Shown: piece by piece, positions 7,736 to 22,075 of the stretch
How the letters are laid out: every line of letters begins with the position of its first letter
How positions within the stretch are numbered: position 1 is the first letter of the stretch
Source of the DNA: a virus
Direction: 5' to 3' (one strand)
Virus record (IMG/VR): IMGVR_UViG_3300042866_001127
Span: 1 to 22,931 of that record
Length of the DNA stretch: 22,931 nucleotides
The notes under the pieces: generated by a model
What the model saw: the letters and a program-made list of their open reading frames with translations, nothing else
Databases searched by the model: none
Told to the model about the DNA's origin: nothing
Position numbers and translations under genes: made by a program

Positions 7736-8208
7736 GCCGTCAACTCCGTCCAGCGAGCCTTGATCGGGCCGGGGCACGCCGTGGCGGCGACCTGGCCGTG
7801 CTGCACGATCCGGGCACCCGGCGCGACCGCTTGCACCCACTTCAATACGTCGACCAGCCACTGGAACGACTTGACTTGAGCGTCGGTGCAGGGGTCGTTG
7901 ACCCCGTTCAAGAACAAGATCCCGTACGAGGTGTCGTTGCGGCCTGCACAGTGCGCCGCACGATACGCTCCGGCGAACTCAGCGATGCGGCCGTCCATAT
8001 GGATGATGTAGTTGTACTCGTTCGCTCTCCAGCGGTTGATGCTCTGGATGGCCTTGGCGAGGTCGGCGTTCGCGTACGACTTGTTGACCCCGGTGTAGTG
8101 ACACACGATCATGCCGAGGTTGCGGGCTAGCGCAGGACGCGCGGTGATCCTGTTGGCGTTGGTGACTCGAGCGGGTAGGCCGAGGTCGATGCGGGGGATG
8201 ATGTTCAT
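7732..8208 (-). CDS. Endolysin: N-acetylmuramoyl-L-alanine amidase (Amidase_2/PGRP type), 158 aa
   Basis: The product cleaves the bond between N-acetylmuramic acid and L-alanine in peptidoglycan at the end of infection, judging by the family. Visible landmarks are CHYTG with His37 as first zinc ligand, NYIIHMDGRIAEFAG with Tyr67, then AAHCAGRNDTSYGI, and QHGQVAATACPGP with His137 and Cys145 as the other zinc ligands, the same order as T7 lysozyme. The position matching the catalytic Lys of T7 lysozyme appears to be Thr143. The length equals a bare catalytic domain with no separate cell-wall-binding domain and no signal peptide, so a holin is needed, and two candidates follow directly. The 38-base gap upstream has no clear Shine-Dalgarno. 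Confidence 0.92.
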   Translation of the reverse strand: MNIIPRIDLGLPARVTNANRITARPALARNLGMIVCHYTGVNKSYANADLAKAIQSINRWRANEYNYIIHMDGRIAEFAGAYRAAHCAGRNDTSYGILFLNGVNDPCTDAQVKSFQWLVDVLKWVQAVAPGARIVQHGQVAATACPGPIKARWTELTA

Positions 8209-14986: not shown

Positions 14987-16246
14987 TCAGAGCGACGACT
15001 CGGTGAGATCGCTGATGACGAAGTGACTGTTGCGCTGCACGCAGGCGAGTTCCATCGACGTGTACAGCGTCGCCTCGAACGCGAGCTGGTTCGGGACACG
15101 CGACAGCACTGCGCCGTCGTCGTCGAGCCACTGCCAGCCTTCCTGCACCTGATGGCAGACGAGGCCGTCGCTGGTGTTGAGGCCGTACAGACGGTTCGAC
15201 GGGCAGTCGAAATCGGGATACCAGCCGAGTTCCTTGCCTGCCGCACCCGACACGCCGGGGGTGACCCACTTGATGCCACGGAACCCGCCAGCGAACTCCA
15301 TCGTGTCGATGTTGCGCTGGTAGGCCGACAGCACCGACTTGCCGGCGATGTACACGCCGACGTTCGACACCAGCACGTCGATGACCTTGCCGGACTCGAC
15401 CTGGTTCTGCATGATCGCGAGATCGACCATCGTTTCCGACAGGGGCCGGTTGGTGCCGCTGTTGGCGTACGCCTGGGCGACCCACACGGGAACGGTCGAC
15501 GGGTTGACGGTGTGCAGGGTGCCCGAACTGGCGACGATGGTCTGCAAGCCGGTCAGTTCCTTCTGGCCGTCACCGGGCTGGCCGGTGCCGCTGGTTGCGC
15601 CACCAGCCGACGTGTTGAACACGAACGCTGCCGACGTGGTCGTCACGGTCGCACCCGAGATCGTGATCGTCCGGTTCGTCAGGTCGACCGCGGTGATCTG
15701 ACGGGCCGACGCGATCGAGGTCGGGGAGGCGACGGTGCCGATGTCGACGACACGACCGATGTACAGGTGACGCATCGCCGACAGAGGCGTGGTCGACGCC
15801 AACTGGACGGTGGCCGACGCCGTGGTCGTACCACAGGTTGCGATCACACCGTTCGAGGTGCCCCACACCTGACGGTTCACGTCACGGATGGCGTCGTTGC
15901 GGATGCCGTCCATCTCGGCTTCCATCGCGTCAGCGAACGAGCCGGGCTCGCCGGTCGCCTGCTGCATCAGCTGGACGGTGAGCTGGATTCGGCCCGTGTT
16001 CCACCGGAGCGGAACCGGAACGGTCGCGTACCGCTGGGTGTCAGCGGTCGGCAGGCTGTCGCCTTCGGCGCGAGCACCGATACCGCCGGAACGGCCGGTG
16101 TGGACAGCGTGACGGGCGATCTTGCCGTTGACGCTGTCCTTCTTGGTGGTCACCTGGGCGAGGATGAACGCTGCGTTGTTGAGGTTCTCCCACAGGGACT
16201 TGTAGTCCTCGCGCAGGATGGCATCGACGTTGGTCAAGCCGGGCAT
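14987..16246 (-). CDS. Major capsid protein, 419 aa
   Basis: I chose the ATG at 16246, preceded by AAGGAG with seven bases spacing; an in-frame TTG at 16279 lies inside a leader hairpin and has no ribosome site. The product begins MPGLTNVDAILREDYKSLWE, a helical N-arm. It continues with RIQLTVQLMQQATGEPGSFADAMEAEMDGI, the spine-helix pattern of HK97-fold capsids. A beta-rich insertion follows (VDIGTVASPT to FVFNTSAGG), then a P-domain-like region with VESGKVIDVLVSNVGVYIAGKS and a C-terminal A-domain ending FVISDLTESSL. It sits after portal and scaffold, in the standard order. No protease gene is nearby, consistent with assembly on a separate scaffold. Confidence 0.9.
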   Translation of the reverse strand: MPGLTNVDAILREDYKSLWENLNNAAFILAQVTTKKDSVNGKIARHAVHTGRSGGIGARAEGDSLPTADTQRYATVPVPLRWNTGRIQLTVQLMQQATGEPGSFADAMEAEMDGIRNDAIRDVNRQVWGTSNGVIATCGTTTASATVQLASTTPLSAMRHLYIGRVVDIGTVASPTSIASARQITAVDLTNRTITISGATVTTTSAAFVFNTSAGGATSGTGQPGDGQKELTGLQTIVASSGTLHTVNPSTVPVWVAQAYANSGTNRPLSETMVDLAIMQNQVESGKVIDVLVSNVGVYIAGKSVLSAYQRNIDTMEFAGGFRGIKWVTPGVSGAAGKELGWYPDFDCPSNRLYGLNTSDGLVCHQVQEGWQWLDDDGAVLSRVPNQLAFEATLYTSMELACVQRNSHFVISDLTESSL

Positions 16247-16275
16247 GGCAAACTCCTTGAGAGTGAAGGGGGGTG

Positions 16276-16310: not shown

Positions 16311-16427
16311 CTCGGCCTCTCCAGGCTCGAGGACGTTTCCCTTGGCTCTCCAGCCAGGTCGGTCAGACTTCGGGTTGCACGGTCCCGGCTCTCCTGCCGG
16401 TTGGTGCGTGAGTCGCTCTCCAGCGAC
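16311..16427 (-). ncRNA. Array of four GGAG-loop RNA hairpins in the capsid gene leader
   Basis: Four small inverted repeats follow each other: 16311-16331, 16343-16356, 16385-16400 and 16412-16427. Read on the coding strand the inner stems and loops are GCCT-GGAG-AGGC, TGGCT-GGAG-AGCCA, CCGGCA-GGAG-AGCCGG and GTCGCT-GGAG-AGCGAC. The stem sequences differ but pairing is kept, while GGAG in the loop does not change. The sequence lies in untranslated DNA. Conserved loops on variable stems are the signature of a repeated RNA-binding site; the loop resembles the GGA loop recognised by CsrA/RsmA proteins, or could bind a phage protein. No open frame of note covers this stretch on either strand. 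Confidence 0.7.
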
Positions 16428-16448
16428 AGAGATTCAGTTGTCTTGCAG

Positions 16449-16484
16449 CCACTCCCCCACCCTCAGGGAAAGGTGAGGGAGTGG
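16449..16484 (-). promoter_or_regulatory. Long hairpin at the 5' end of the capsid leader
   Basis: CCACTCCC at 16449-16456 pairs perfectly with GGGAGTGG at 16477-16484, and the stem continues inward after one mismatch with CACC/GGTG. It is the first structure in the predicted leader transcript. Highly expressed phage mRNAs often carry a 5' hairpin that protects against decay; that role here is inference. Confidence 0.6.
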
Positions 16485-16527: not shown

Positions 16528-16556
16528 ACGATACACGCCCGTGTGGCGTGTTGCAA
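16528..16556 (-). promoter_or_regulatory. Promoter-like sequence for the capsid transcript
   Basis: On the coding strand TTGCAA (16556-16551) and TATCGT (16533-16528) are separated by 17 bases, a sigma70-type arrangement with four of six matches in each box. It begins just after the scaffold stop codon (16560-16562). A 7-bp inverted repeat (16533-16539 with 16545-16551) occupies the spacer and could be an operator or a terminator stem for the upstream transcript. Transcription would start near 16521, giving a leader of about 275 bases. Confidence 0.4.
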
Positions 16557-16559
16557 ACA

Positions 16560-17300
16560 TCACCGGGTCGGTGAGGCCGTGATCCGGTTCATCATCTTCT
16601 CGCGAGGCGACAGTTGCGATGCGGGGGTGGCCGACATCGGCGCACCCGACGGGGCCGGTGACGGGATCTGACCGGCAACACCAGCCGCGGCCGCAGCCGC
16701 CTGCGACTGCAACGACTGCTCCGCACGGAACACGTTGATCGCTCGACCCATGTCGCCGTCGTACGCCTTCGCGAGCCGGATGATTTCCTGGCCTTCGGCG
16801 GATGCCGGACTGAAACCGGCGTCGGCCATCTGTCGGGTGTAGTCCGAAATGAACTGCTGGGTGCGGACAGTGGTCTGCGCCTCGTAGCGGGCAGCTTCCT
16901 GGGCGGCGGCGATCAACGCCCCGATGTCAGGCATCTGCTGCTGAGCGGGTGCGGCGGGCTGCGGGCTGCCGCCGATGTCGGCGGTTGCCGCCATGCCGCT
17001 GGACTGCTGGCGGGCAGCAATCAGTTCGGTCACGGGACGGCCCGACACGTTCTCGGCGGTCGCCAACGACCAGTTCACGACCGTTTCGTAGTCGCCGGCA
17101 CGAATCGCTTCGGTCAGGCCGATCACAGCGGCCCGTTCGTCTTCGGACAGATCCTTCAGCATCTGCATCGCCGGTCGGTACAGGTTGCGTTCCTGCTGCC
17201 GGAACCCGACCTCGGACTGGTATTTCGCCTGCCAGTCGACGGCTTCGGCGACGGCAGACGCGACGTTCGTGTCGACGGGTGTGGGGTTGTCAGTTTCCAA
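16560..17300 (-). CDS. Capsid scaffolding protein, 246 aa
   Basis: The only usable start is TTG at 17300, inside the end of the portal gene, with AGGAGG nine bases upstream. The protein is Gln/Ala/Glu-rich and largely helical (DWQAKYQSEVGFRQQERNLY near the start), with Ala/Pro/Gln linkers (residues about 100-125 and 205-230). The C-terminal helix is basic (SPREKMMNRITASPTR), the part that usually contacts the coat protein in podoviral scaffolds. Position between portal and major capsid supports the call. The weak start codon may help keep scaffold levels below capsid levels. Confidence 0.82.
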   Translation of the reverse strand: METDNPTPVDTNVASAVAEAVDWQAKYQSEVGFRQQERNLYRPAMQMLKDLSEDERAAVIGLTEAIRAGDYETVVNWSLATAENVSGRPVTELIAARQQSSGMAATADIGGSPQPAAPAQQQMPDIGALIAAAQEAARYEAQTTVRTQQFISDYTRQMADAGFSPASAEGQEIIRLAKAYDGDMGRAINVFRAEQSLQSQAAAAAAGVAGQIPSPAPSGAPMSATPASQLSPREKMMNRITASPTR

Positions 17301-19245
17301 CGGGCATTCCCTCCTGTGGTTGCATGTCTGGCTGTTGGTCGGTGGCTGGCTGCTGCGCTAACGCTGCGGCCTGCTCGAGTTCTGCTTGGAACTTGGCGTG
17401 GATCGCGATGTGGGTATCCATGTAGTCCTGCACCTCAGGTGGGGCGTGCCGATACGACGCCGACGCGCGCACATCATTGTGACACTTGATGTGTTTGGTG
17501 TGGTCATGCCAGTCGTCGACCATCACTTCTGTGTCACCGACACCGGCAATCATCCGGCTGTTCTCCCAATCGGCGAGCGACACCTGCGGATCTTTCACAG
17601 ACGCAAACGCGGTCACATCGGGGGTTCGCAACACGGCAGCCAACTGGCCTGGCGACATGTCTTGGAACAGGGCCGGGAACGCCCCGGCGAGCCGCAACAT
17701 CACATCTTGGATCGCTGCCTGCGAACGGGGAACCACCGATTCGAGCGGGACACGCACAACCGGGTTGTGAGGCAGATCGTCGGCTGTCCAGATCACATCG
17801 GACGGATGATCGCCGTCCATCACCACGTCCTCGACCCGCATCGGGCCTTGACCGGATGGGACCATCACCTCATCGATCTCATCCATCAGATGCTTCATCG
17901 TTGCGAGCGTCATCTGGGCAACTTTCTGCCAGGCACGCTGCTGCGATTTCGACATCGGCCCCAACGGTGTCTCATCCTTCTCCGCAAGGATCGACAGGGC
18001 CAAGCCACTGTTGCGGTCACCAGGCGCGATACCTCGGGACACTTGATGGGTGGAGAACAAGTCGTCCATCTCCATCTCCAACTTCTCGATGTGTTCCCGC
18101 AACCAGCGAGGGATCTGTGGGGCAAGCATCCAGTGCGGATCACCGACGTTCGGGTCGACACGGATCACTTCACCCACATCGCCGGTCAGGTCATCTTCTT
18201 CGGACAGCACAGCACCCATCGGCAAGATCAGTCGGGCGTTGTCGGCTTTGCCGATGTGCGCGTTGATCGACGTGAACGCCTTGTTGTAGTTGCGTTGCAG
18301 CTGGCGGGCGTCGTTCAGCAGGGTGTCGCCACGCCAGTTCGACCCGACCGGCGTCTGGACGGTCAACGCCAGGTTCAGATGATCTGTGAACGGGAACGGC
18401 CACGGGCTGCACTGCACGATCTTGTCGCCGATCACATGCGCCACACAGCCAGGGGAACGCCACGACGGACGCTCGTAGTAGATGTAGACGAGACACATCT
18501 TCGATTCGGGACGTTGCCGGCCGCTGCGTCGCGAGATCAACGCCCGATGCATCACCGAGAACGTGGAGGCGTCAGCGTCGGGTGACGGGGCTTTCTCCAA
18601 CTGGTAGCGATCCTGGGCCTGTTCGGGTGACAGGGTGGTGCAACGCATCCACCAGCGGGCATCTTTTGAGTCGCGGGTGCCGGGTTCGATCCCGAACTCG
18701 GCTGCGGACAGGGCCGACAGTTTGACCGACGGTCGTGTCGGCAACCGGACGGCGTCACCGGTTTCGATCAGCGGGACAGGTGCCGGGGCGTATTCCCAGT
18801 CGGGTTCCACGCTGATCGCGGCGACTGCGCCCAGCAACGTGTTCAGCACAGTGTCGGCCCGCACCTGTTCCCAGTCGGAACGGTGAGCTTCGATTTCCAA
18901 CACCTGGCGTTGCAGCGATGCTTTGCGGACGGCGTCTTGGTCGACGCCTTGGGGGCGGGGCTCGAACTCGAGAGGGGTTTGGGTGAACCGGGCAAGCAAC
19001 ATGACTGTGCGAGGCTTGAACTTGTTGACGGTCACCCGCACGTCGGCGTCGGCAGAGGATCCGAACGGCAGAACGTCGACACGGCCCGCAGAGTCATCCC
19101 ACTGGATCCACTGGTCGCCGAGGAAGTAGGAATGGTTCAGCCAGTAGTTGCGGCGAACGTCCAGCATGTCATCAACGATTTCGGCCCATTTCTTCTTGAT
19201 GGCCGCGGCGGTCGGGACGTGCGGCTCCATCGTGTCGATGTTCAT
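17290..19245 (-). CDS. Portal protein (podovirus-like), 651 aa
   Basis: ATG at 19245 with CTGGAG upstream. The product forms the dodecameric ring at one vertex through which DNA enters and leaves. The N-terminal clip/wing helices are visible (WAEIVDDMLDVRRNYWLNHS, then YFLGDQWIQWDD), with VTVNKFKPRTVMLLARFTQT typical of P22/T7-like portals. The central segment has NARLILPMGAVLSEEDDLTG and GIAPGDRNSGLALSILAEKD followed by helical stem residues (WQKVAQMTLATMKHLMDEID). The C-terminus is Gln/Pro-rich. The length, above the roughly 400-500 residues of siphoviral portals, fits a short-tailed phage. It sits directly before the scaffold gene. Confidence 0.9.
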   Translation of the reverse strand: MNIDTMEPHVPTAAAIKKKWAEIVDDMLDVRRNYWLNHSYFLGDQWIQWDDSAGRVDVLPFGSSADADVRVTVNKFKPRTVMLLARFTQTPLEFEPRPQGVDQDAVRKASLQRQVLEIEAHRSDWEQVRADTVLNTLLGAVAAISVEPDWEYAPAPVPLIETGDAVRLPTRPSVKLSALSAAEFGIEPGTRDSKDARWWMRCTTLSPEQAQDRYQLEKAPSPDADASTFSVMHRALISRRSGRQRPESKMCLVYIYYERPSWRSPGCVAHVIGDKIVQCSPWPFPFTDHLNLALTVQTPVGSNWRGDTLLNDARQLQRNYNKAFTSINAHIGKADNARLILPMGAVLSEEDDLTGDVGEVIRVDPNVGDPHWMLAPQIPRWLREHIEKLEMEMDDLFSTHQVSRGIAPGDRNSGLALSILAEKDETPLGPMSKSQQRAWQKVAQMTLATMKHLMDEIDEVMVPSGQGPMRVEDVVMDGDHPSDVIWTADDLPHNPVVRVPLESVVPRSQAAIQDVMLRLAGAFPALFQDMSPGQLAAVLRTPDVTAFASVKDPQVSLADWENSRMIAGVGDTEVMVDDWHDHTKHIKCHNDVRASASYRHAPPEVQDYMDTHIAIHAKFQAELEQAAALAQQPATDQQPDMQPQEGMPVGN

Positions 19246-19477: not shown

Positions 19478-19794
19478 GGGTCGACCAGATGGATCGATGA
19501 CCGGATCGCGTCGATGCGGGCTTGCAGTTCGTCGCGTTCCCGTTCGACATAGTCGAGGCGTTGCTGGACGTACAGGTAGTCGTCACGCAAGTCGGAGGCG
19601 ACGATGGCTTTGCCGACGGCAGGGCCGATCAACTGGCCGACGTAGGTGGCGCAGTCGGCGCACAGGTACACCCGATGCGTGCGGGCGTACACCCCGAGAT
19701 CGGCGACCTGTAGATCGATGACTGGCCCAGTCTTTGATGTTCCACAGGTGGCACAGCAACCTGGGGCCGCTCGGAACCCTTCGGTCAACTCCAT
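19474..19794 (-). CDS. Zinc-ribbon protein with C-terminal coiled coil, 106 aa
   Basis: I chose the ATG at 19794, preceded by an AAGGAAG ribosome site and overlapping the 3' end of the large terminase gene by ten bases; the frame to 19842 lies inside that gene. Two CxxC pairs, Cys14/Cys17 (CCATCGTS) and Cys45/Cys48 (YLCADCATY), 27 residues apart, form a likely zinc ribbon. After a short amphipathic region the C-terminus is a coiled coil (YVQQRLDYVERERDELQARI). Nucleic-acid or protein binding is likely; location between terminase and portal hints at packaging or its regulation. Confidence 0.75.
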   Translation of the reverse strand: MELTEGFRAAPGCCATCGTSKTGPVIDLQVADLGVYARTHRVYLCADCATYVGQLIGPAVGKAIVASDLRDDYLYVQQRLDYVERERDELQARIDAIRSSIHLVDP

Positions 19795-21431
19795 GATGGT
19801 CTTCCTTTCCGTTTGTCCATGCGGCGAAGCATCTGTTGCCATTTGGCGTCTGCGCCGACCGCGGGGATGCGGCGGCGATGCACTTCGTTCATTGGTCGTA
19901 CTGCGAGCATGTAACGCAACGCGTCGACTGCGTGATCTTCGAGGTGGGTGTCGAGGTCTTCAGGGTTGTGACGCGAGTGCTGCATCAACGGCAGGGTGCG
20001 TGCCAGGTTGGTGCAGGTGTTGAAGATGTACAGCCGTGGCCCACCGACGGTGCCTTCGGCCTGGTCGATCTTCTCTGGATCCCACAGGTATTGGCGTACG
20101 TTTGCCCAACCGGCGACTCGCTGGTTCTTGGCCCGTACGACATGCAACCCGTTCGCCCGCCACATGTCCGCGATCGATTGGCCGGTGCCACGCCGATCCG
20201 AGAACACCGACGGGTCAGCAACGGTCGCCTGAAACTTTTCGCGTCGCTGGTTCCCGTCAACAGACCGGGCGACGACTTTGCGGGCCTGCGTGTCGGGGGT
20301 GAGCCCGGCTTCGTACTCTTCGCGGTAGACGTAGCAGTTGCCGTCGTTGTCCCACGCCCCCCACAGACAGCAGTACGGCGCGGTCGAACCGTAGTCCAAC
20401 CCTCTGATCCGACCCCACGATTCGGGAATCTCGAACGGTTCGATCACATGTGTCGCCCGCGAGTACGCCTCAAAGAACTGGCCTTCAAACGTGTCCCAGT
20501 CGCCGTCGCGTAGTTGGCGGCGTCGGCGTTCCGGTAGCGCGTTCAAGAACTTGAGGTAGGACGGGTCGATGTGCGGGTTGTCGGTCGCTTTCGCCGGCAC
20601 GAACGCGACCGCGAGCTGGGTGGCCGGATCAACCTCGACATGCAGGCCGTTCGCCCACGGGATCAGCACGTCATAGAGTTCGTCGTAGGTGGCGTCGCGC
20701 ACACTGACCGGAGCTTCGTACTCGCGGACCGGGAACAGTTTCTCCAACCCTTGCGACACGTCGTACACGACGATCTTCTGGCCGTACCCGCAGGCGGTGA
20801 CGAACGTGTCGTACAGCCAGGCGTGCGCCACGTCGCCAGGGTTCGTGAACAGGCCGAGATGGGGGCGGGCTCCGAGAGCAGCCTTGTCTTTCGTGGTTCG
20901 CAACCGGGCCGAGAGTTGAACGATCTGGTCGGGGGTCAACTGTGACGCCTCGTCGATCACCATGCAGTCGTACTCTGCGGACAGGTACTTGCCGACATCC
21001 TCGTCGGTGGCGCAATGACCACACTCGATCAGTGACCCGTTCTGGTAGTCGAACCCTGACTGCCCGTCACGTTTGCGGTAGCGGGCCGGGATCTTGTACT
21101 GCTTGATGCGGGTGATCAACCGGAGGATCAGCGAACGTCGGAGCTCGGGGATCGATTGTCGGATCAGTAGGCTGTTGTGGTTCGGGATCCTGTTCGACAG
21201 TTCGTTCACATGGTGGCACGCGAAGTCGGATTTGCCGCCGCCGGCCGCGCCGCCGTACAGCAACCAGTCGACGTGCCGCCAGACGGCGTCTGCATACTGC
21301 TGTTTCGGGGTCAACGTCCACCGGTTCGGGACGGATGCGTCCATGAGTCGGAGGAACTCGATTCGTTCCTCTTCGGTGAGGAGATCGAAGTCGAAATCGC
21401 CGAGTACCCGGTCGATTGCGTTGCGGGTCAC
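19785..21431 (-). CDS. terL: Terminase large subunit (packaging ATPase/nuclease), 548 aa
   Basis: The start is the GTG at 21431, overlapping the preceding stop as GTGA; a longer frame to 21611 lies inside the upstream gene and is rejected. The N-terminal ATPase has Walker A LLYGGAAGGGKSDFA (about residues 57-70) and Walker B YDCMVIDEAS (about 153-162), with a coupling-motif-like LFTNPGD after it. The C-terminal RNase H-like nuclease shows acidic residues in RGLDYGSTAPY (about 345), VADPSVFSD (about 405) and LEDHAVDALRYML (about 497-502). The enzyme docks on the portal, pumps DNA into the prohead and cuts the concatemer. Confidence 0.95.
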   Translation of the reverse strand: MTRNAIDRVLGDFDFDLLTEEERIEFLRLMDASVPNRWTLTPKQQYADAVWRHVDWLLYGGAAGGGKSDFACHHVNELSNRIPNHNSLLIRQSIPELRRSLILRLITRIKQYKIPARYRKRDGQSGFDYQNGSLIECGHCATDEDVGKYLSAEYDCMVIDEASQLTPDQIVQLSARLRTTKDKAALGARPHLGLFTNPGDVAHAWLYDTFVTACGYGQKIVVYDVSQGLEKLFPVREYEAPVSVRDATYDELYDVLIPWANGLHVEVDPATQLAVAFVPAKATDNPHIDPSYLKFLNALPERRRRQLRDGDWDTFEGQFFEAYSRATHVIEPFEIPESWGRIRGLDYGSTAPYCCLWGAWDNDGNCYVYREEYEAGLTPDTQARKVVARSVDGNQRREKFQATVADPSVFSDRRGTGQSIADMWRANGLHVVRAKNQRVAGWANVRQYLWDPEKIDQAEGTVGGPRLYIFNTCTNLARTLPLMQHSRHNPEDLDTHLEDHAVDALRYMLAVRPMNEVHRRRIPAVGADAKWQQMLRRMDKRKGRPSWS

Positions 21432-22075
21432 TCGTCGTCTTCCAGATGGACGGTTTGGCGAACGTTGCCGGGTTGCGCCGACCTGGCTTCGATGCGTTGG
21501 CGCAGGTCGTTGAGGTGACGGACAACGTCTTCGGTGGTGTCTTTCGCTGTCGTTTCGACAAGCTTGTCCATTGCGGCACCGGTCTTGTAGGTCTGCCGGA
21601 TCGTGGCCCAATGCTTCGCCATCTCGGTTGCTTCTTTGCCGGTCACTGGGGAGAACTGGGGTCCGCCGGTCAGCACGGCCGCGGCCATCAACCGGACGAT
21701 GTCGTCAGCCATCTTCGGGATCGACGCCTGTTTCGCTCGTTGCGCGGCGACTTCCATGTTGGCCTTGGTGTTCTCCAAGATTTCGGCTGCGGTTTCTCGA
21801 GCCTGTTCGTCGCGGAGTTTGCGGGCTTCCCGGTAGGGGCCGCGTGATTTCTTCTGTAGTTCTCTTGCCCGTTCGGATCCTTCGGGGGTGGCCTGAAGGG
21901 TGCGGGGGAGCCAGCGGGGGTTGTTGACTCGTTCGGCGATGACTGTGTTGTCGTCGGGTATGCCGTGGTTGATGCGGTCGTCGGTTGCGACAGGGGCCGG
22001 TTCGGCTTCGATTCGGGTTTTGCCAGTCAGGATGTTGTGCAGGTCGTCGTCAATCTCGATGCGATGGTCAGCCAC
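21428..22075 (-). CDS. Putative terminase small subunit, 215 aa
   Basis: GTG at 22075, eight bases inside the end of the preceding short gene. The protein is helical and charged: a polar N-terminus (ADHRIEIDDDLHNILTGKTR), an Arg/Lys/Glu-rich coiled stretch at about 70-120 (KSRGPYREARKLRDEQARET), a more hydrophobic helix pair (PKMADDIVRLMAAAVLTG), and an acidic end (VHLEDDE). No classic helix-turn-helix is obvious. The call rests on its position immediately before terL with overlapping stop/start and on its size and oligomer-like helical content. Confidence 0.6.
   Translation of the reverse strand: MADHRIEIDDDLHNILTGKTRIEAEPAPVATDDRINHGIPDDNTVIAERVNNPRWLPRTLQATPEGSERARELQKKSRGPYREARKLRDEQARETAAEILENTKANMEVAAQRAKQASIPKMADDIVRLMAAAVLTGGPQFSPVTGKEATEMAKHWATIRQTYKTGAAMDKLVETTAKDTTEDVVRHLNDLRQRIEARSAQPGNVRQTVHLEDDE

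Follow-up and report, generated by a model that had tools for sequence, protein, structure and literature searches.

The window analysed in this work, a stretch of 22,931 nucleotides from an IMG/VR virus record, is a fragment of a tailed phage, in minus-strand orientation. The features that bear on the region upstream of its major capsid gene (MCP) are the following:

19785-21611, minus strand: terminase
17290-19245, minus strand: P22/SU10-like portal
16560-17300, minus strand: upstream open reading frame of 246 aa, placed between portal and capsid, in the position of a scaffolding gene
16528-16556, minus strand: weak promoter-like sequence TTGCAA-N17-TATCGT upstream of the array, a candidate picked out by eye and absent from the consensus-scan list
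16412-16427, minus strand: hairpin 1, GTCGCT-GGAG-AGCGAC, from sequence and predicted fold; within a match (16384-16443) to the covariance model R1
16385-16400, minus strand: hairpin 2, CCGGC-AGGAGA-GCCGG, from sequence and predicted fold; A opposite A replaces the U-A closing pair
16343-16356, minus strand: hairpin 3, TGGCT-GGAG-AGCCA, from sequence and predicted fold; within an R1 match (16312-16369)
16315-16326, minus strand: hairpin 4, GCCT-GGAG-AGGC, from sequence and predicted fold
16253-16258, minus strand: Shine-Dalgarno sequence AAGGAG of the capsid gene, read from the sequence, outside the array
14987-16246, minus strand: MCP, 419 aa, start codon at 16246; matches phrog_14242 major head protein (E 2.9e-73)

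An SU10-type adaptor is also encoded in the window, and the 246-aa open reading frame has no match in Pfam or PHROG. The MCP shares 27-29% identity with capsid proteins from phages of Arthrobacter, Microbacterium and Cellulosimicrobium. A leader of 313 nt runs from the upstream open reading frame to the MCP start codon, and on its capsid-sense (minus) strand, between 16315 and 16427, it carries four hairpins in tandem, each with a GGAG-containing loop; three of them are closed by a U-A pair and one has an A·A mismatch, and the MCP start lies 68 nt downstream of the array. The first-pass annotation had reported four GGAG-loop hairpins at this place; all of them are present on the minus strand, but the loop of the second one is the six-base AGGAGA and not a closed GGAG. 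Directly upstream of the array there is a strong inverted repeat, CACTCCCTCACC...GGTGGGGGAGTG (16448-16481, minus strand), without a T tract. A fifth copy of the hairpin core, CGCTGGAGAGCG, is located at 8023-8034 (minus strand) in a coding frame (Arg-Trp-Arg-Ala), and probably occurs there by chance.

The minimum-free-energy fold and the centroid of the minus-strand leader both contain the four hairpins. The folding energy of the whole leader is ordinary (z -0.8), so the signal resides in the hairpins and their loops and not in the total folding energy. When perfect hairpins sharing any common four-base loop were counted, the largest cluster within 120 nt had four members in the window versus two at most in 60 first-order Markov shuffles, and three hairpins of the type UGGANA within 130 nt, each with at least three further Watson-Crick pairs, were reached in 0/1,500 Markov shuffles of the window. 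The earlier claim that such an array does not easily arise by chance is upheld by these results.

A search of IMG/VR with the window MCP gave L001, a near-identical contig with a single mismatch over 7,257 bases, and ten further contigs whose MCP is 53-57% identical (L002-L011). Only the near-identical contig has the array; in the other ten a leader is present and the array of the window is absent from it, so that conservation with changed stems was not found among relatives of the window's own capsid gene. Their leaders carry three other small GGA-loop hairpins, CGTCT-TGGATT-AGACG, TGAC-GGAA(C/A)-GTCA and GTT-CGGAG-AAC, in contigs too similar to each other for a covariation test. In these contigs a consensus-like promoter (TTGACA ... 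TATAAC) was also seen, and it lies with the GGA-loop hairpins in the region approximately 80-190 nt upstream of the capsid start. In the more distant relatives, from phages of Arthrobacter, Microbacterium and Cellulosimicrobium, there is hardly any leader at the capsid gene. The first-pass annotation had named relatives that keep the capsid gene without the hairpins as the outcome that would speak against its proposal, and the ten contigs are of this kind; nonetheless, in a wider survey the array turned out to be recurrent in capsid leaders.

A pattern scan for two copies of GCTGGAGAGC unexpectedly gave contigs with three UGGAGA hairpins on differing stems, in most cases immediately before an MCP gene of the HK97 type (PF05065). 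The array-bearing MCP is preceded by a gene for a Peptidase_S78 prohead protease, and the array is either intergenic or lies within the 3' end of the protease frame. The first pattern scans gave mostly coding repeats, which were sorted out by stem pairing and MCP position; a three-copy scan combined with classification by MCP profile yielded 77 MCP-near loci, some of them redundant. Copies of CTGGAGAG near the MCP were extended by at least one further pair in 222/223 cases and by at least two in 205/223; for copies elsewhere the counts were 399/887 and 177/887, respectively. When a scan with fixed 21/33 spacing was run with no gene information, 35 of the 36 three-stem sites were upstream of an MCP.

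An unbiased set was obtained by fetching MCP homologues by protein similarity alone, which gave 74 distinct leaders, none shorter than 150 nt. At least one GG-loop hairpin was found in 73 of these leaders and at least two in 68, proportions that measure retention within the capsid families of the array-bearing phages used as queries and not the frequency among all phages; equal lengths taken inside the MCP genes as a control showed nothing similar to GG-type loops. The commonest loops were GGAG (108), GGAC (47), GGAU (11), GGUAGA (5) and GGAA (4). Among 194 cores the closing pair gave UGGANA in 189 and CGGANG in 5, in a search that demanded U-A or C-G closure, and the distance from core to core was 21 nt in 59 cases and 33 nt in 44; intergenic arrays hold a spacing of 21-22 and 32 nt. 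The typical design consists of GGAN loops closed by U-A, in most cases on three successive hairpins, immediately before an MCP gene of the HK97 type.

The MCPs of array type fall into 11 clusters when grouped at 40% identity and into 103 at 90%. In a second capsid family the loops are UGGAGA, with GGUAGA or GGUG in some members, and other members have no arrays; the variant loops GGUAGA, GGUAUA or GGUG were observed in the capsid leaders of L312, L313, L316, L317, L422, L423 and L425. Close MCP relatives without arrays also exist (L318, L321-L329). Among relatives of the array-bearing capsid proteins, the human-gut record MT835488 carries the array, and the cultured Butyrivibrio and Terrisporobacter phages do not. 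No array match was obtained in 391 genomes of one class under strict filters, and three were obtained in 191 genomes of another order.

Several observations indicate that these arrays are selected at the RNA level. In an alignment of 38 arrays, made with MAFFT and no structure-fitted model from members preselected for three stems, 91.5% of 683 cells are paired, versus 65.6% in shuffled and 33-51% in slid controls; double changes were found in 16 of the 18 pairs, and the covariation score was 0.709 versus 0.213. The arrays located in the protease frame encode L/V-E/D-S/N/T and, when they are collected regardless of stem pairing, AG comes after CTG in 77/78 cases, AA after TTG in 52/56 and AC after GTG in 47/47. 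Given that the synonymous Leu codons CTG and TTG require different partners two codons on, protein-level selection cannot explain the coding arrays. The compensatory stems around a constant loop, which the first-pass annotation had described for the window's array, are in this way confirmed across phages. At the three inner pairs of the sense strand, G-U and A-C occur in a ratio of 32:13, an excess of G-U that indicates the capsid-sense transcript as the functional form; a reading on the antisense strand or as DNA (CUCC loops on the plus strand) is disfavored by this preference and by stems that vary by compensation. Decoys of the Shine-Dalgarno type, in which GGAG would recruit ribosomes, were discarded given that the fourth position is unconstrained and the GGA is flanked by U/A, so that pairing to the anti-Shine-Dalgarno sequence is not the conserved feature. 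Pairing of UGG with the CCA end of tRNA found no evidence, and the CGGANG and AGGAGA variants speak against it. The arrays are a family of hairpins under selection at the RNA level, placed at capsid genes and usually present once per genome.

The array of the window shows the design of this family, that is, at least two tandem U-A-closed GGAN hairpins upstream of an MCP (three strict hairpins and one variant). The two best matches in the window of R1, which was built without the window, are the array itself (16384-16443, E 0.008; 16312-16369, E 0.04), in a search run with filters off; with default settings it was missing from the matches in the same record. The usual, not universal, core spacing of 21/33 nt is absent from the window, where the cores are 27, 43 and 29 nt apart, and neither its capsid nor the neighboring genes show BLAST-level similarity to the HK97-type array group. 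Membership is then assigned from the loop, the tandem design and the position, its nearest relatives being without the array. On these features of sequence we regard it as quite probable that the window's array belongs to the family of GGAN hairpins in capsid leaders, whether by homology or by convergence, both of which are possible.

A different arrangement was found in two related phage-plasmids with a parA-like gene (L066, L074). Four GGA-loop hairpins are located in a non-coding stretch away from the MCP, between a strong promoter-like site, TTGACA-N17-TACAAT, upstream and a strong stem with a T-rich tail downstream, and no array is present at their MCP. This array is possibly a separate, stand-alone RNA, and such a form, more than any other observation, is not expected from a model in which the element works only in cis. 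The loci L442:2866-3180 and L441:2469-2740 are listed with this candidate.

The array may be a cis-acting element of the sense strand in the leader of the capsid mRNA, roughly 45-130 nt before the start codon, in which each hairpin would display a constant GGA-type loop, usually a U-A-closed GGAN, on an arbitrary stem. The loops could be read by a trans-acting factor, and two to four hairpins at preferred distances would allow one oligomeric factor, or several copies of it, to hold several loops together. Binding would determine how much the capsid gene yields in comparison with the preceding genes, through translation or through processing or stability of the mRNA, or by transcription attenuation where hairpin 1 has a U-tract. 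A role in cis is favored by the fact that phage records mostly have one R1 site, at the MCP. The last core is mostly 49-81 nt before the start codon, a distance that leaves the ribosome-binding site free. At 28 of the 77 MCP-near loci a T-rich tract follows directly on the first hairpin, as in an intrinsic terminator, which makes attenuation possible at those loci; the coding-class arrays and the array of the window have no such tract after the first hairpin. T-rich tracts after the first hairpin, resembling a terminator set before the capsid gene, were noted at L282, L023, L030, L044, L048, L049, L103 and L115, among others. As for the factor, only terminase, portal, protease and MCP are common to all ten array-type phage genomes compared, none of which the window shares by BLAST, and for this reason a host factor seems more likely; a dedicated phage-encoded binding protein was discarded given that none is common to the ten. 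Taken together, we give about even chances to a cis-acting leader element whose loops are bound by a trans factor, probably the host's, and which sets the output of the MCP.

Feedback by a structural protein is an unlikely alternative, although the likeliest of those considered: the capsid precursor, the protease or the scaffold would bind the hairpins and limit its own synthesis, as the P22 scaffold does post-transcriptionally. The location of the arrays at the MCP and the core proteins common to these phages, which include the protease and the MCP, agree with it, but one loop type precedes very different capsids (the 11 clusters at 40% identity, and the window MCP, unmatched by BLAST), whose N-termini range from basic to acidic, and close MCP relatives lack the array (L318, L321-L329).

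Somewhat less likely is that an endoribonuclease cuts the GGA of the loop, like T4 RegB does at GGAG/U, to separate and stabilise the capsid message. The arrays do lie between the protease and capsid genes, and a GGAN tetraloop would satisfy the preference of RegB for an unpaired GGA with a partly constrained fourth base (PMC3014915). However, the GGUAGA loops do not fit this idea, and a RegB homologue gave no match in 17 phage or host genomes, in a search whose control was also without a match.

The first-pass annotation had also suggested that the array titrates a host regulator. An abundant late mRNA would then act as a sponge for a host RNA-binding protein, in the way that the RNAs CsrB/RsmZ titrate CsrA, and the four hairpins of L066/L074, away from the MCP and between a promoter-like site and a terminator-like end, fit such a role; elsewhere, however, there is usually only one array, located at the MCP, a placement that disfavors titration, and CsrA was not found in the hosts tested, so we consider this improbable. 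Finally, a repeat kept for the protein (heptads with Leu-Glu-Ser in the tail of the protease) or mere coincidence, with no RNA function, is very improbable in spite of the many arrays inside the protease frame whose spacing is 21 nt (7 codons), and the protein repeat is rejected for the family, given that the synonymous Leu codons dictate the partner codon (CTG/AG 77/78, TTG/AA 52/56) and that arrays are also intergenic, the window's own array lying in an intergenic leader.

Few late products of a phage are made in such quantity as the capsid protein, and to our knowledge it is poorly known how HK97-type phages set its output apart from that of its operon neighbors. A conserved RNA element at the capsid junction of many phages suggests a common control step and a binding factor, and the natural variants of the array are a ready set for pull-down and mutational tests. 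The broader reading of a cis-acting leader element, namely an undescribed phage RNA family that is read by a widely distributed bacterial RNA-binding factor and sets capsid synthesis across several host groups, with a stand-alone RNA in some phage-plasmids, is in our opinion as probable as its opposite.

The covariance models of Rfam 15 gave no match in the window and none at the array loci apart from one tRNA. No capsid-leader RNA of this kind was found in a search of the open-access literature; PMC8040213 makes no reference to the capsid in its main text. Within Rfam 15 and this literature the earlier statement that there is no named equivalent holds, and the GGA-loop arrays of capsid leaders look like an undescribed RNA element, for which an earlier, poorly visible description is possible.

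Among known systems, the operator of the MS2/PP7 coat proteins is a single hairpin with a bulged A. It is likewise a hairpin of phage mRNA tied to capsid production, with a conserved loop, whereas the arrays occur in DNA phages, are tandem and have no bulge. T4 RegB alone recognises GGA, and GGAG is cut efficiently when the GGA is unpaired, the fourth base being partly constrained (PMC3014915). Its sites resemble the arrays in that GGAG/U is found in an unpaired context of phage mRNA, but they are single, mostly in initiation regions of early genes, and are not conserved hairpin arrays. The RNAs targeted by ANTAR proteins likewise have hairpins in tandem whose loops are constant and whose stems vary, in some cases beside a terminator; nevertheless, the ANTAR hexaloop must carry A at position 1 and G at position 4 (PMC3369931), which the UGGANA loop lacks, and those RNAs have two hairpins instead of the three that are mostly found here. 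An ANTAR protein gave no match in 17 genomes, with a control search that was likewise without a match. The likeness drawn by the first-pass annotation was to CsrA/RsmA-binding RNAs. PF02599 was not found in four array-carrying host MAGs (G001, G002, G571, G593), which are possibly incomplete and whose phage contigs are possibly mis-binned, nor in any of the 12 genomes of the order of G001 or in the phage records; the same search detected it in two sibling genomes and three controls. The consensus for CsrA around the GGA is A(N)GGA(N), and a spacing of approximately 20 nt would suit a CsrA dimer bridging two sites. The GGA in most loops and the presence of several GGA-loop hairpins, in mRNA leaders or in stand-alone RNAs, are shared with the CsrA/RsmA leaders and with CsrB/RsmZ; in contrast, the bases 5' of the GGA (UGGANA) do not fit that consensus and in a minority of the arrays the loop is GGUAGA or GGUG, with no GGA, so that, together with the result for the host MAGs, the arrays do not appear to be members of that class and the analogy with CsrA is functional at most.
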